NCBI GenBank assembly: GCA_017640665.1
Contig: JAEPQE010000001.1
Span: 885,262 to 949,261, forward strand
DNA from: Balneolaceae bacterium
GTDB lineage: Bacteria; Bacteroidota; Rhodothermia; Balneolales; Balneolaceae
Reading direction: 5' to 3'
DNA: 64,000 bases
Part shown: positions 34,772 to 52,913 of the stretch, piece after piece
How positions within the stretch are numbered: position 1 is the first letter of the stretch
Layout: each line of letters starts with the position of its first letter
Translations under genes and position numbers: made by a program
The notes under the pieces: model-generated
Database searches by the model: none
Told to the model about the DNA's origin: nothing
What the model saw: the letters and a program-made list of their open reading frames with translations, nothing else

Positions 34772-35470
34772 TTACGCACTTTTCTTGGAAAATGTATAAT
34801 GTGCCGCCCCATCCTTTTCAAACAAGTCTAACACTCCCGCGCTCACCAGGTTAACCAGAATCTTAGCTGCCGTATAGGTTGTAGTGTTGATCAGAATGGA
34901 GAATCGCTCTACTGTGATATCGCTATACTCGTTCAGGAATCTGAATAGCAGACGCTCCTTTTCTCCATACTCAAAGGTAACTCCTTCCTCAGAGCTTCCG
35001 TTTTTGAGCACCTCTTCTATTTCATCTGAGGCAAACACACTTTCATCTTCTCTACGGATGTAGACAATTCTGCTCTTCTTTCCTTTTACATAAATGGGTT
35101 TTTCTTCCGCTTCCGGGATATCCACCAGCAACACATCTATGCCATTGAAGCTGATTAATTCGATTGTAATCTCAGGCTCGGGTACGCAACAATCCTCTAC
35201 GGCCTGACTAATCCAGAACTCTTCCTCCATATAACTTTCAACGCCTACTATTTCGCCGTTGTCTGCAACACCGATTAACAATTTACCGCCTTTTGTATTG
35301 GCAAAGGCTGCAATCTCTTTTGCAAGTTTTTCAGGGGATGCCACTTTATATTTGAATTCCAGGAATGAGCTCTCTCCGGTTGCAATCAGGTTTTTCAGGT
35401 CCTGCTTCGTCATATCCGAAATCTCAACTGTTCCGGTATGCTGTAAATAGAATTCCATCTCGTCTTTCAT
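34772..35470 (-). CDS. AlbA_4 (Schlafen AAA_4-type) putative DNA-binding protein with winged helix
   Basis: 232 residues. AlbA_4 domain at ~25-135: ESSFLEFKYKVASPEKLAKEIAAFANTKGGKLLIGVADNGEIVGVE is the classic signature, including E-x-K and the NTKGG-x-L-x-I-G-V loop. RIVYIRREDESVFAS closes the domain. The C-terminal ~80 residues look like a winged helix (RFLNEYSDITVERFSILINTTTYTAAKILVNLVSAG). Such proteins are usually called transcriptional regulators or ATP-binding proteins, but characterised cases are few. It lies between gpsA (55 bp) and the A-type carrier gene (28 bp) on the same strand. Confidence 0.82.
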   Translation of the reverse strand: MKDEMEFYLQHTGTVEISDMTKQDLKNLIATGESSFLEFKYKVASPEKLAKEIAAFANTKGGKLLIGVADNGEIVGVESYMEEEFWISQAVEDCCVPEPEITIELISFNGIDVLLVDIPEAEEKPIYVKGKKSRIVYIRREDESVFASDEIEEVLKNGSSEEGVTFEYGEKERLLFRFLNEYSDITVERFSILINTTTYTAAKILVNLVSAGVLDLFEKDGAAHYTFSKKSA

Positions 35471-39320: not shown

Positions 39321-40739
39321 TTATTTCTTAACCGGAGTTCCCAAGTGAACCCCTTCGTTATATGCCTCAGCAACAGCTTCCATCACTGCTTCAGAAAGCG
39401 TTGGATGTGGATGAACCGCGCTTATGATTTCGTGTCCGGTTGTTTCCAGGTCACGGGCTACAACTGCTTCCGCGATCATTTCAGTAACACCAAAACCTAT
39501 CATGTGGCAACCGAGCCATTCGCCGTACTTTGCGTCAAACACTACTTTAACAAAACCTTCTTCATGACCAAGTGCTGTCGCTTTTCCGCTCGCTGATAGC
39601 GGGAATTTCCCAACTTTGATGTCGTAGCCTTCTTCTTTAGCTGCTTCTTCGGTTAGCCCAACAGAAGCAATCTGAGGCTCACAATACGTACATCCGGGAA
39701 TATTGCTGTAGTTAATTGGCTTTGGACTCATTCCTGCCAATTGCTCCGCTAAAACAACCGCTTCATGAGAGGCTTTATGTGCCAACCATGGAGCTCCAAT
39801 GATATCACCAATAGCATAGATTCCATCAACTCCGGTAGAATAGTCTGAGCGGTCAACCACAATGGCTCCTCTTTCTAGTTTTACACCTATTTCTTCCAGG
39901 CCAAGTCCTTCCACATTCCCGGTTACTCCAACCGCTGAAAGTACAACATCGGCTTCGATTTTCTCTTCACCTTTCTTTGTTTTTACTGTGACTTCAACAC
40001 CTTTTCCTTTTTTGGAAACTTTCTCGACAGTGCTTTCTGTAAGGATGTTGATTCCTTTTTTCTTGTAGAGTTTTCCAAGTTCGCGACCAACATCTTTGTC
40101 TTCTACGGGAACTAGTGTTTTCTGAAGCTCTACAATCGTTACTTCGGTTCCAATAGTGTTGTAAAAATAGGCAAACTCAACCCCAATGGCTCCGGCTCCT
40201 ACAATCACCATTTTCTTAGGTTGCTTTTCCATCGTCATCGCCTTTTCAGAATCGATGATCATTTCGCCATCAATTTCTAATCCCGGTAGCTGACGAGGTC
40301 TTGCACCGGTCGCGATAATAAAATGCTTCGCCTTGATGCTCTCGGTTTCTTTACCATTTTCATCACTAACAACTACTTCTGTTTTTGATTTGAACGAGCC
40401 GGTTCCCATGAACACGTCAATCTTGTTCGCCTTCATCAGGAACTGAACACCTTTACTCATCTTATTAGCAACGCCACGGCTTCGCTTCACGATCCCATCA
40501 AAGTCAGCGGATACATCTTTTACCGTGATACCATAATCATCCGCATGTTGGATAGATTCCAATACTTCTGCAGAACGGAGTAACGCTTTTGTTGGGATAC
40601 ATCCAATATTGAGACAAACTCCGCCTAAATGTCTTTTCTCTACAATTGCCGTTTTAAATCCCAGTTGTGATGCGCGGATTGCAGCTACATATCCTCCCGG
40701 GCCAGACCCGATTACGCATACATCAAATTCTTTTGCCAT
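39321..40739 (-). CDS. lpdA: Dihydrolipoyl dehydrogenase (E3)
   Basis: 472 residues. FAD motif VIGSGPGGYVAAIRASQLG, redox-active disulfide in GGVCLNIGCIPTKALL, NAD motif IVGAGAIGVEFAYFYNTIGTEV, YAIGDIIGAPWLAHKASHE, and the C-terminal His-Glu dyad in HPHPTLSEAV. It reoxidises dihydrolipoamide in pyruvate and 2-oxoglutarate dehydrogenase and related complexes. No E1 or E2 gene is adjacent in this window. It heads a minus-strand series with lipB and lipA, a neat grouping of lipoate use and synthesis. Confidence 0.97.
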   Translation of the reverse strand: MAKEFDVCVIGSGPGGYVAAIRASQLGFKTAIVEKRHLGGVCLNIGCIPTKALLRSAEVLESIQHADDYGITVKDVSADFDGIVKRSRGVANKMSKGVQFLMKANKIDVFMGTGSFKSKTEVVVSDENGKETESIKAKHFIIATGARPRQLPGLEIDGEMIIDSEKAMTMEKQPKKMVIVGAGAIGVEFAYFYNTIGTEVTIVELQKTLVPVEDKDVGRELGKLYKKKGINILTESTVEKVSKKGKGVEVTVKTKKGEEKIEADVVLSAVGVTGNVEGLGLEEIGVKLERGAIVVDRSDYSTGVDGIYAIGDIIGAPWLAHKASHEAVVLAEQLAGMSPKPINYSNIPGCTYCEPQIASVGLTEEAAKEEGYDIKVGKFPLSASGKATALGHEEGFVKVVFDAKYGEWLGCHMIGFGVTEMIAEAVVARDLETTGHEIISAVHPHPTLSEAVMEAVAEAYNEGVHLGTPVKK

Positions 40740-40949
40740 GATTTCCTTTTGATAATAGTTTCGGTGTTTTCCTCAAAATCAGCGCCACAAAAGCACTAAC
40801 TCACAAAAAATGAAAACACTAATTCGTGCTTTCTTGTTTCCGTGGCAAATTTTTTCTCTGAGCCTCAAAACAGGATGTGAGGCAAATTGCCAAGGCTTGT
40901 TAAGGTAAGGGTTTTGGGAATTAAGTTCGAGTTTTGCTCAACCCTAAAC

Positions 40950-42539
40950 TTAGCTTTCTTCTTCTTTCAGAAATATTATATCCTCAATATTTCTTTCTTC
41001 TAGAATTTTTCTACTGAAGTCTTCAATACTTTTTAATTTTCTTTTCTTTTCTTCCTCAGTAGACAGGGTTATGTCATCGTACAGTTTTAATGTTTTAGAT
41101 ACTTCACTTGATTCTAAGCTATAATAATATCTTCCGCCTTCTTCATAACCTTTCTCTTCTATTTTACCTATTATGTTTAATCCTTGAAACAAGTTAAACT
41201 GATTAAATATTAACTGAAAAGGGATTATTAAACCGACAACTTTGCCTTGTAATTTTTTGTTGGTCCAGAAACTAGTTTTTATTCTTATGTCATCTCCGTC
41301 AATTAGTTTTTTTATAATATCATATCTTAACTCTTGTTTAATCAATTCATCCGTTTTTGCTGAAAAAGATGGTATTTCAAAATAGTCCCCAACTTTAATT
41401 GAATTATATATCGCCTCTCCATTTTTCAGGATCATACCCTTTTCAGGAAAATTAATCTCTGGTTTAAAACTAATTACACGTTTTTCTTTAAAGAAAACAT
41501 TCGCAGTTAAACTAACCCCTCTACTTTCGGCTGTTGCAATATGGAAAAGAAACTTAGAGATATTTCTCATTTTGTTAATGTCTATAAGGTCTTGGGGATT
41601 TGGTAATGTCATATCAACTTTAAGTTGATCATCTTTAAAGTTTGCTAAAAAAGATAAATACTCATCTTTCATTAGAAACTTAAATTGCTCCTTTTTTAAA
41701 TCCTTGACACCTGACGGAAGGAAAATATCAAGTTTCAAATTTCCAATGTCCTTTAAATCATCACTAATTAATTCGATTCTAGCCTTAGAGTTCGGTTTGA
41801 CCTCCACTTTTAGTGTTCCTGGTCCTAAATCAACGTAATTAGAATAAGTACCAAATCTCTTCCTTCTTTTTTTTGACTCAATAGCTTTAAGCTCCGCTGA
41901 GAGCCCCAAACTCAAATCTACTAACTCCTCGACTGGATCCCTTCCACTCTTTGAAAGAATAGTCACCAACAATTCTTCTTTTTCAACTCCTACTTTTTTG
42001 ACTAGTTCTGCTTTTCTATGTGAATAGTTAAACATTCCACCTTTCAAATATTTTTCTATCTCTGATTTTACTGATTCTCCATCGTTTGATGATAAAAGAT
42101 CTGATTCTCTTCTTGGGTAAGACATTTCATTTTTTAGTAATATCGTTTGCCCTTCTTTTATTCCCCTAAGTCTTTTTAATCCCTTAATAATTAACTCTTC
42201 TCCAACATGAATTAAGTAAACTTTTTCAGGTTTTTTCTTTCCATTAAATTCCATTCTTACAATAAAAAAAGGAGATGCGTCATTAATCATCTTTTCCCAA
42301 TTCCTTAATGATATCCCTTTATTACTCTTTGAATCGTCAGAAGATTTAATTTGGACAAAACATTTATAACGAGCTTTTTTTTCGTCGTAGGTTTTGTCTT
42401 GTGACAAAGGCGGGTCAAATTCTATTACAAAATCCCAGCCTTGTTTATCATTTAGTGGCGGATTACATGTAAGCCCTTCCTCAGAACACCAGGTCTTGAA
42501 TTGATCTTGTCCTAATTCCCCTAAATCTCTTTCACTCAT
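40950..42539 (-). CDS. Protein with N-terminal PD-(D/E)XK nuclease-like (DUF4365-like) domain, unknown C-terminus
   Basis: 529 residues. The first ~105 residues have the restriction-endonuclease-like order of residues: Glu in LGELGQDQF, Asp in GWDFVIEFD, then Gln-x-Lys in CFVQIKSSDD, as in DUF4365 and related nucleases. The remaining ~420 residues have no motif I know. They are rich in Lys, Ile, Leu and Phe, with beta-like stretches and a helical Glu/Lys-rich tail. The gene is strongly AT-rich: three 60-base lines counted by hand gave 33, 22 and 27 % G+C against 45 % for one lpdA line. It stands alone between lpdA and a divergent cyclase gene. Horizontal acquisition and a role in DNA defence are inferred. 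Confidence 0.65.
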   Translation of the reverse strand: MSERDLGELGQDQFKTWCSEEGLTCNPPLNDKQGWDFVIEFDPPLSQDKTYDEKKARYKCFVQIKSSDDSKSNKGISLRNWEKMINDASPFFIVRMEFNGKKKPEKVYLIHVGEELIIKGLKRLRGIKEGQTILLKNEMSYPRRESDLLSSNDGESVKSEIEKYLKGGMFNYSHRKAELVKKVGVEKEELLVTILSKSGRDPVEELVDLSLGLSAELKAIESKKRRKRFGTYSNYVDLGPGTLKVEVKPNSKARIELISDDLKDIGNLKLDIFLPSGVKDLKKEQFKFLMKDEYLSFLANFKDDQLKVDMTLPNPQDLIDINKMRNISKFLFHIATAESRGVSLTANVFFKEKRVISFKPEINFPEKGMILKNGEAIYNSIKVGDYFEIPSFSAKTDELIKQELRYDIIKKLIDGDDIRIKTSFWTNKKLQGKVVGLIIPFQLIFNQFNLFQGLNIIGKIEEKGYEEGGRYYYSLESSEVSKTLKLYDDITLSTEEEKKRKLKSIEDFSRKILEERNIEDIIFLKEEES

Positions 42540-42633: not shown

Positions 42634-43425
42634 ATGAATGCTTTTAAATTCCTTCTTATCATACTTTTACTCACGTACTGCACTCCAATCGAAAAACACG
42701 CCTTCGAAGATGGGGTCTGGGTTGATCTGACGCACGATTATAGTTATGAAACCCTGTATTGGCCTACCTCGGATACCTGGATAATGGATACCGTTTTTGT
42801 AGGTCAGACTGACGGCGGTTATTACTATGAAGCCTTCAAGTTTAGCACGGCAGAACATGGAGGCACTCATCTTGATGCTCCCATTCATTTTTCGGAAGGT
42901 AAGCAGACGGTAGATGAGTTAAGCATAGATCAGCTTTCCGGATATGCAATTGTGATTGATGTATCTGGTCAGGTTGAGGAGAACCGTGACTACCAAATCC
43001 TCCCTGAGGATATAAAAGCCTGGGAAGTTGAACATGGCTCAATACCGGATGGCAGTATTTTATTATTTCATACCGGACTTGGCACTCTCTGGCCCGATGC
43101 AGAGTTGTACCTCGGCACAACCTTGCGCGGGGCTGAAGGAGTCGCAAACCTGAGTTTCCCAGGAATCCATCCTGATGCAGCCCGATGGCTGGTTGAAAAC
43201 CGTTCCATAAAAGCGGTGGGCTTAGATACCCCAAGTCTTGATTATGGAAAATCCACCGAGTATATGACACACCGGATTTTATTTGAAAAGAATATTCCGG
43301 GTTTTGAAAATGTTGCGAATCTGGATCGACTTCCAACTGTAGGGGCTTATGTAATGGCTTTACCGATGAAGATTAAAGACGGAAGCGGTGCCCCATTGAG
43401 AATTGTGGCGAATATTCCGAAGTAA
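42634..43425 (+). CDS. Cyclase family (kynurenine formamidase-like) lipoprotein
   Basis: 263 residues. Lipoprotein signal MNAFKFLLIILLLTYC. The metal-binding motif HGGTHLDAPIHF (HxGTHxDxPxH) is intact, followed by LLFHTGLG, the GIHPDAARWLVE segment and AVGLDTPSLDYG, all typical of the cyclase/KynB family (PF04199). Cytoplasmic members hydrolyse N-formylkynurenine or isatin. A lipidated periplasmic version has unknown substrate. A palindromic repeat and then the MltB-like gene follow on the same strand (173 bp). Confidence 0.88.
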   Translation: MNAFKFLLIILLLTYCTPIEKHAFEDGVWVDLTHDYSYETLYWPTSDTWIMDTVFVGQTDGGYYYEAFKFSTAEHGGTHLDAPIHFSEGKQTVDELSIDQLSGYAIVIDVSGQVEENRDYQILPEDIKAWEVEHGSIPDGSILLFHTGLGTLWPDAELYLGTTLRGAEGVANLSFPGIHPDAARWLVENRSIKAVGLDTPSLDYGKSTEYMTHRILFEKNIPGFENVANLDRLPTVGAYVMALPMKIKDGSGAPLRIVANIPK

Positions 43426-52187: not shown

Positions 52188-52913
52188 ATGAAAAACCCCA
52201 CCTGGCATAGAGATGAGATCATATTAGCATTGGATCTATATTTCAGAATGGATTCAAGTAAGATGACTAGTTCACATCCTGATATTATTGAATTATCAGA
52301 ACTATTGAATCGCCTTCCCATTCATGATGTAAGACCGGATGAGGTAAAGTTTAGAAACCCGAATGGTGTGAATTTAAAATTGAATAATTTTAAAGCATTC
52401 GACCCTTCCTACACGGGTGCAGGAATGCAGAATTATGGAAGGCTTGATAAAAAGGTCTTTGAGGAGTTTGAATCCGATACGAAGAGACTTCACAAGATTG
52501 CCAATCGAATCCGGGAAGTAAGTAGCGATCTTGATTTGGCTAATAAGCTGTACCTCATCCGAGAGATTGAAGATGAAGAAAAATTTGAGGTTAAAGAGGG
52601 GGCGGTAATCTATAAACTTCACAAATATAGAGAGCGTAACACTAAAATCATAAAGAAGAAAAAAGAAACGGAGTTTCAACGTATGGGCAAACTACCATGC
52701 GAAGCATGTATGTTTGATTTCTATCAAAAATATGGATCATTAGGCTACAAATATATAGAGTGCCATCATCGAACCCCTTTATCTGAGTTTTCTAGTACTA
52801 CTAGAACTTCTTTAGATGATTTAGCTCTAGTATGTTCTAATTGTCATAGGATGCTTCATAGAAAAGTTGATGAACTTAGTGTGGAGGGTTTAAGAAGTAT
52901 TCTTTCCGCCTAG
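52188..52913 (+). CDS. HNH endonuclease, McrA-like
   Basis: 241 residues. The N-terminal half has the pattern of McrA-type restriction proteins: WHRDEIILALDLYFRM, IIELSELLNRLPIH, and KFRNPNGVNLKLNNFKAFDPSY. The C-terminal HNH domain is complete: CEACMFDF, ECHHRTPLSEF (His-His), and LALVCSNCHRMLHR, with paired Cys binding structural zinc. Relatives are annotated as 5-methylcytosine-specific restriction enzymes, a type IV activity against modified DNA. No methyltransferase is nearby, as expected for type IV. One counted line gave 37 % G+C, a little low. It is tightly behind the oxidoreductase gene. Confidence 0.82.
   Translation: MKNPTWHRDEIILALDLYFRMDSSKMTSSHPDIIELSELLNRLPIHDVRPDEVKFRNPNGVNLKLNNFKAFDPSYTGAGMQNYGRLDKKVFEEFESDTKRLHKIANRIREVSSDLDLANKLYLIREIEDEEKFEVKEGAVIYKLHKYRERNTKIIKKKKETEFQRMGKLPCEACMFDFYQKYGSLGYKYIECHHRTPLSEFSSTTRTSLDDLALVCSNCHRMLHRKVDELSVEGLRSILSA

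Follow-up and report, generated by a model that had tools for sequence, protein, structure and literature searches.

A lone AT-rich gene upstream of lpdA encodes a candidate anti-phage protein with a predicted SPARDA-type nuclease domain

What is the function of a lone, AT-rich gene wedged between lpdA and a cyclase gene on a bacterial chromosome? We addressed this question for an open reading frame in a stretch of 64,000 nucleotides from a Balneolaceae bacterium (hereafter the window). A sequence-only reading had singled it out as a candidate defence protein with a restriction-type N-terminus followed by about 420 residues without a known sequence match. The reading frame starts with ATG, encodes 529 amino acids and lies exactly where that reading had placed it (Table 1). 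Its composition is as deviant as claimed: G+C content is 31.5% (GC3 25.5%) compared to 44.4% for lpdA and 45.2% for the cyclase gene, and the gene coincides with the lowest-GC 1590-bp stretch of the window, about 4 s.d. under the window mean of 41.7%. The ORF list and a Pfam Cyclase match confirmed that it stands alone between lpdA (39321-40739, minus strand) and the cyclase gene (42634-43425, plus strand). A search for repeats flanking the gene returned nothing above chance-like matches. Elsewhere in the window lie a Schlafen/AlbA_2 domain protein adjoining gpsA (34772-35470, minus strand; Pfam 7e-26) and an HNH endonuclease gene (52188-52913, plus strand; Pfam HNH 1e-7, PADLOC HNH model 7e-14), the latter a second possible defence gene of the window.

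Table 1 Features of the gene and of the adjoining lpdA upstream region (window coordinates)
Feature	Position	Strand	Basis
Whole gene, 529 aa: predicted DREN-type nuclease domain plus C-terminal domain without a recognised fold	40950..42539	-	ORF list, translation, full-length relatives of 504-540 aa
Predicted DUF4365/DREN-type PD-(D/E)XK nuclease domain, residues ~5-128	42156..42527	-	Profile-profile match, Foldseek, Pfam DUF4365 on relatives
D36 codon, equivalent of catalytic D41 of NbaSPARDA DREN	42432..42434	-	Invariant in 19 members; aligned to D41
Q63-I64-K65 (QxK) codons, equivalent of catalytic Q60/K62	42345..42353	-	Q and K invariant in 19 members
C-terminal domain, residues ~132-529, with invariant Y172, K176, G184, R228 and F229; presumed sensor/regulator	40953..42146	-	Conservation
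Conserved element between lpdA and the insertion slot, which it borders	40890..40935	-	Alignment of lpdA upstream regions, 11 genomes

Searched on its own, the window protein found no match in Pfam, PADLOC or NCBIfam and only chance-level matches among PDB sequences, and single-sequence scans of genome contigs and viral contigs returned nothing. The family was opened only by alignments of plasmid relatives. Searching plasmids with tblastn located relatives on 32 plasmid records, and more members were then found on genome contigs and viral contigs. Annotated ORFs of ~500-540 aa occur on plasmids or integrative elements of Alteromonas, Legionella, Klebsiella, Vibrio, Pectobacterium, rhizobia and Methylocystis, the Legionella copy adjoining tra/ICE genes. 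Shorter ORFs are found in, for example, Agrobacterium and Paraburkholderia, and further copies in Glaciecola, Vibrio and Nisaea; the sampling beyond the window's phylum was not systematic. There was no match when 50,697 phage records were searched by tblastn with four family members, nor in a PDB sequence search with full-length and N-terminal family profiles. A member on a Morganella phage-plasmid-like contig (L072/L073, 7980-9505) is broken into two ORFs, and the E. coli G3/10 copy is likewise split, which indicates that loss by frameshift occurs. No description of the family was found in the literature searched, an incomplete set that ended short of the supplementary tables of the hotspot paper cited below.

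Across 19 members with approximately 20% identity, D31, D36, Q63, K65, P90, L121, Y172, K176, G184, R228 and F229 are invariant. The constancy of D36 and Q63-x-K65 among such divergent proteins is not due to chance. The proposed E, D, QxK residue order was thus right for the aspartate and the QxK motif, the latter falling inside one predicted strand (residues 58-67), but not for the glutamate: the corresponding column, GE in most members, holds a glutamine (Q11) in the window protein. The GC content of the locus exceeded that of the gene in 18 of the 19 members.

The DREN/DUF4365 nuclease is the effector of the short-Argonaute system SPARDA. As a test of nuclease identity that is independent of folding, we compared the family with a profile from real SPARDA operons on plasmids, in which DUF4365-APAZ genes adjoin short Argonaute genes. 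Profile-profile comparison of the N-terminal halves (hhalign) gave E 4e-5 for the family versus DREN and 0.14 for the reversed control, and the alignment puts D36 opposite the D of DREN and Q63/K65 opposite its QxK. An AlphaFold model of the window protein (mean pLDDT 67, nuclease part mostly 60-90; 9-sequence alignment) gave a concordant result in Foldseek, where the 13 top-ranked PDB matches were SPARDA DREN-APAZ chains without exception (best E 1.3e-5, probability 1.0), with I-Ssp6803I and Hjc among the lower matches. A further match, in BFVD, was a DUF4365 protein of Leptospira phage LE1. Relatives also match Pfam DUF4365 (PF14280) over residues ~9-115, L008 with 24.3 bits at the curated cut-off and the others below it, while the window protein itself gave 0 matches. 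The weak PADLOC matches of relatives were only to PDC-M02A (E 0.002-0.05, residues 4-70).

In NbaSPARDA, D41, Q60 and K62 are catalytic: collateral nuclease activity is lost in the D41A and Q60A mutants and impaired in K62A, and the nuclease is active as a DREN tetramer (PMC12205087). In TmuRE, Q62/K64 play the part of Q60/K62 (PMC10810196). On the combined profile and model evidence, the N-terminus is a predicted DREN/DUF4365 PD-(D/E)XK nuclease domain that retains the catalytic D, Q and K, although its match to DREN is a distant one. The fold of the modelled N-terminus matches a nuclease, and the restriction-type assignment can be sharpened to the SPARDA DREN/DUF4365 type.

The remainder of the protein gave a different picture. 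When the C-terminal region of the family was compared with APAZ, hhalign returned E 0.79, no better than reversed controls (0.65-0.76). A separate C-terminal model, built from the relative L074 (pLDDT 76, pTM 0.64; 9-sequence alignment), had no significant PDB match in Foldseek and found SPARDA only at E 0.27 and probability 0.02. With these two lines of evidence, an APAZ identity of the C-terminus was ruled out. Lacking both an APAZ profile match and a fold match, the C-terminal ~400 residues are unrecognised, much as the sequence-only reading had it. These results also bear on whether the protein might be an orphan SPARDA effector, that is, a DREN-APAZ protein whose Argonaute gene has been lost or whose Argonaute is encoded elsewhere. 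Such an origin would account for the same nuclease domain in the same N-terminal position, and Foldseek alignments to DREN-APAZ chains do span 270-500 columns, but with an rmsd >12 Å. We consider it extremely unlikely in view of the C-terminal comparisons and of the PADLOC Argonaute-associated (Aga) models, which match true DREN-APAZ proteins at 1e-172 and family members never. In addition, the whole genome of the window contains no Piwi gene or Argonaute, and no Argonaute gene was found beside those relatives that were viewed with annotation. To judge by sequence, the ~500-540 aa proteins are an undescribed family in which a known effector nuclease occurs within a new architecture that lacks Argonaute.

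A lone protein that joins a PD-(D/E)XK nuclease to a reader domain is a classical design. The main rival to a collateral nuclease is direct restriction of phage DNA, in which the C-terminal domain would bind that DNA at a modification or a sequence, the nuclease would cut it directly and the cell would survive, as in type IV systems. The Foldseek neighbours that follow SPARDA include MspJI, DpnI and Eco15I, with weak E-values, and such systems are also among the P2/P4 slot cargo (PMC9122126). We nevertheless regard direct restriction as unlikely: the collateral DREN type is by far the best nuclease match, and no modified-DNA reader domain (SRA, winged helix or YTH-like) was detected by Pfam in the members or by Foldseek with the C-terminal model.

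In the window's phylum, single-sequence and profile searches recovered the gene from 2 of 394 genomes, namely the window genome and G038, a member of another genus whose copy is 40% identical and occupies the same slot upstream of lpdA in the same orientation. Sampled other members of both carrier genera are without the gene. G026 and G054, relatives of G038 that match it almost exactly on either flank, are empty as well; compared with them, G038 shows a clean single-gene presence/absence in which the gene replaces ~28 bp. Universal presence at this place in relatives, which would have spoken against a defence role, is thus not what we found. In most of 11 genomes compared, a conserved element (AACTCGAACTTCAA..AAAACCCTTACCTT on the lpdA strand) precedes lpdA by about 150-200 bp; it borders the slot and may be a promoter or regulatory site. 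The stop codon of the gene falls ~14-18 bp before this element in both carriers.

Other genomes hold different genes at this site. Congeners of the window genome have BlaI/BlaR1 arrays in the slot and other relatives a toxin-antitoxin-like pair. Around the lpdA-mltB region, relatives (L040 4741-9363, L044 3047-9730, L041 1504-6573 and L043 6458-9718) encode a BlaI-type repressor together with a BlaR1-type M56 peptidase and, in tandem, 3-7 paralogous proteins of ~230 aa, one of which matches MORN_2 weakly. The ParE/RelE-like toxin-antitoxin pairs found upstream of lpdA, in the slot of two other genomes (L042 1700-2210 and L050 9311-9807), were recognised by eye. In view of these occupants, we abandoned an interpretation of the entire lpdA-mltB slot as a defence island.

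In the family tree, the copies of the window genome (G000) and G038 are sisters, so the slot was either filled a single time, in an ancestor, and often emptied later, or related copies arrived twice. Another reading is a vertically inherited chromosomal gene of the genus group, for instance a repair or recombination nuclease, that was lost in most relatives and has no role in defence. That two genera have the gene in one slot upstream of lpdA, in one orientation and with a common right border, agrees with this, as does the sister relationship. Set against them are the rarity of the gene in the phylum, the fact that no other sampled member of either genus has it, an AT content far from that of the host in both carriers, and relatives on plasmids, prophages and satellites. 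Together, these observations make vertical inheritance without a defence role a very unlikely explanation.

On two P2-like phage contigs the family gene adjoins the gpQ portal gene, and in the longer contig it is visibly flanked by gpA and gpQ; P4-like satellites have it between psu and int. Among 5,426 complete E. coli genomes, 9 carry the family gene, always annotated as 'hypothetical protein'. Eight of these copies belong to a P4 satellite, where psu and int flank them, most at tRNA-Thr/proA, and the ninth adjoins the same integrase, with IS5 upstream and its ORF split. The E. coli P4 version has the accession WP_001157928.1. Blastn against E. coli with the Klebsiella and P2 versions of the gene gave no match. 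Both slots are described as hotspots of tested anti-phage systems (PMC9122126; for the P2 slot also PMC9519451).

Defence genes accompany relatives elsewhere, too. On two Methylocystis plasmids (L004 3427-8476 and L071 4523-9572) the gene begins 5 bp after that of an S8 peptidase, which has an AAA ATPase gene upstream, and on the plasmid tested the peptidase and the ATPase match the IetS and IetA components, respectively, of the defence system IetAS. In Methylocystis this may be a three-gene system in which the protease is paired with the family nuclease. A family member on an Agrobacterium plasmid has AbiE and ABC-three-component genes nearby. The neighbourhoods of the homologs (P2 gpA-gpQ slot, P4 psu-int slot, adjacency to IetAS) lend support to the earlier suggestion of a candidate defence protein.

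The many copies on mobile elements could also mean that the gene serves its own carrier, through superinfection exclusion or through plasmid competition or stabilisation, rather than the host. Such functions overlap with defence, and the chromosomal copies at lpdA are in no recognisable element. Moreover, P2/P4 cargo in the hotspot slots protects the host against other phages in published tests (PMC9122126). A purely carrier-serving role therefore seems most improbable.

Taken together, the DREN match, the invariant D36, Q63 and K65, the P2/P4 slots, the IetAS neighbour, the patchy presence and the low GC content of the gene suggest that the window gene probably encodes a one-gene anti-phage (or anti-mobile-element) defence protein, whose C-terminal part would sense infection and release a collateral nuclease. 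Several observations weigh on the other side. The window gene is a lone chromosomal gene outside any defence island, and the G038 copy at the same slot in another genus could mean an old gene lost many times. No PADLOC model matches the family beyond weak hits on the nuclease part (0 for the window protein), and the remote nuclease match is accompanied by models built on small alignments with modest pLDDT values.

The proposed mechanism borrows its collateral action from SPARDA. The C-terminal domain would keep the nuclease inactive in the healthy cell. Upon infection, it would recognise a phage-derived trigger, which might be a protein, a DNA end or an RNA, and the DREN domains would be brought together, comparable to the active DREN tetramers of SPARDA. 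The assembled domains may then cut DNA, perhaps also RNA, indiscriminately, leaving the infected cell dead or arrested before phage release. Whether the family as a whole is a widespread one-protein immune system, with a SPARDA-type collateral nuclease under a fused, new-fold sensor of a phage component instead of a guide RNA and Argonaute, is a bolder proposition, to which we give slightly less than an even chance.

If true, the SPARDA effector nuclease would be a portable module that has been joined to another sensor in place of Argonaute. The known defence families would also gain one that needs a single gene, is easy to clone and already has members in P4 satellites of E. coli and in P2-like prophages. 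Should the C-terminal domain be a new infection-sensing fold, it would bring a new recognition principle, and a collateral nuclease triggered by a protein could be a simpler detection tool than an Argonaute complex.

Among known systems, I-Ssp6803I and the Hjc resolvases have the PD-(D/E)XK fold in common with the family, with weaker Foldseek matches, but are small proteins without the C-terminal domain, and the gene context gives no sign of homing or junction resolution. Type IV and other modification-dependent restriction enzymes combine their nuclease with a reader domain, a combination not seen in the family. Most known DUF4365 proteins met in this analysis have partners other than those of the family. 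The likeness to SPARDA is closest in the N-terminal nuclease, which has the same fold by Foldseek and the same catalytic D...QxK, whereas APAZ fused to the nuclease and a short Argonaute (MID-PIWI) in the same operon were not detected; the family proteins are ~80 residues longer, and the window gene is a lone gene flanked by lpdA and the cyclase gene. With IetAS (AAA ATPase plus subtilase), the two Methylocystis members share a locus, while the window gene and other members are without adjoining IetAS. As for P2 and P4 cargo, the main text of the hotspot paper (PMC9122126) makes no mention of DUF4365 and the window gene is chromosomal; its relatives, however, fill the same gpA-gpQ and psu-int slots, as single genes, as do old, tin, PARIS and DUF4238.
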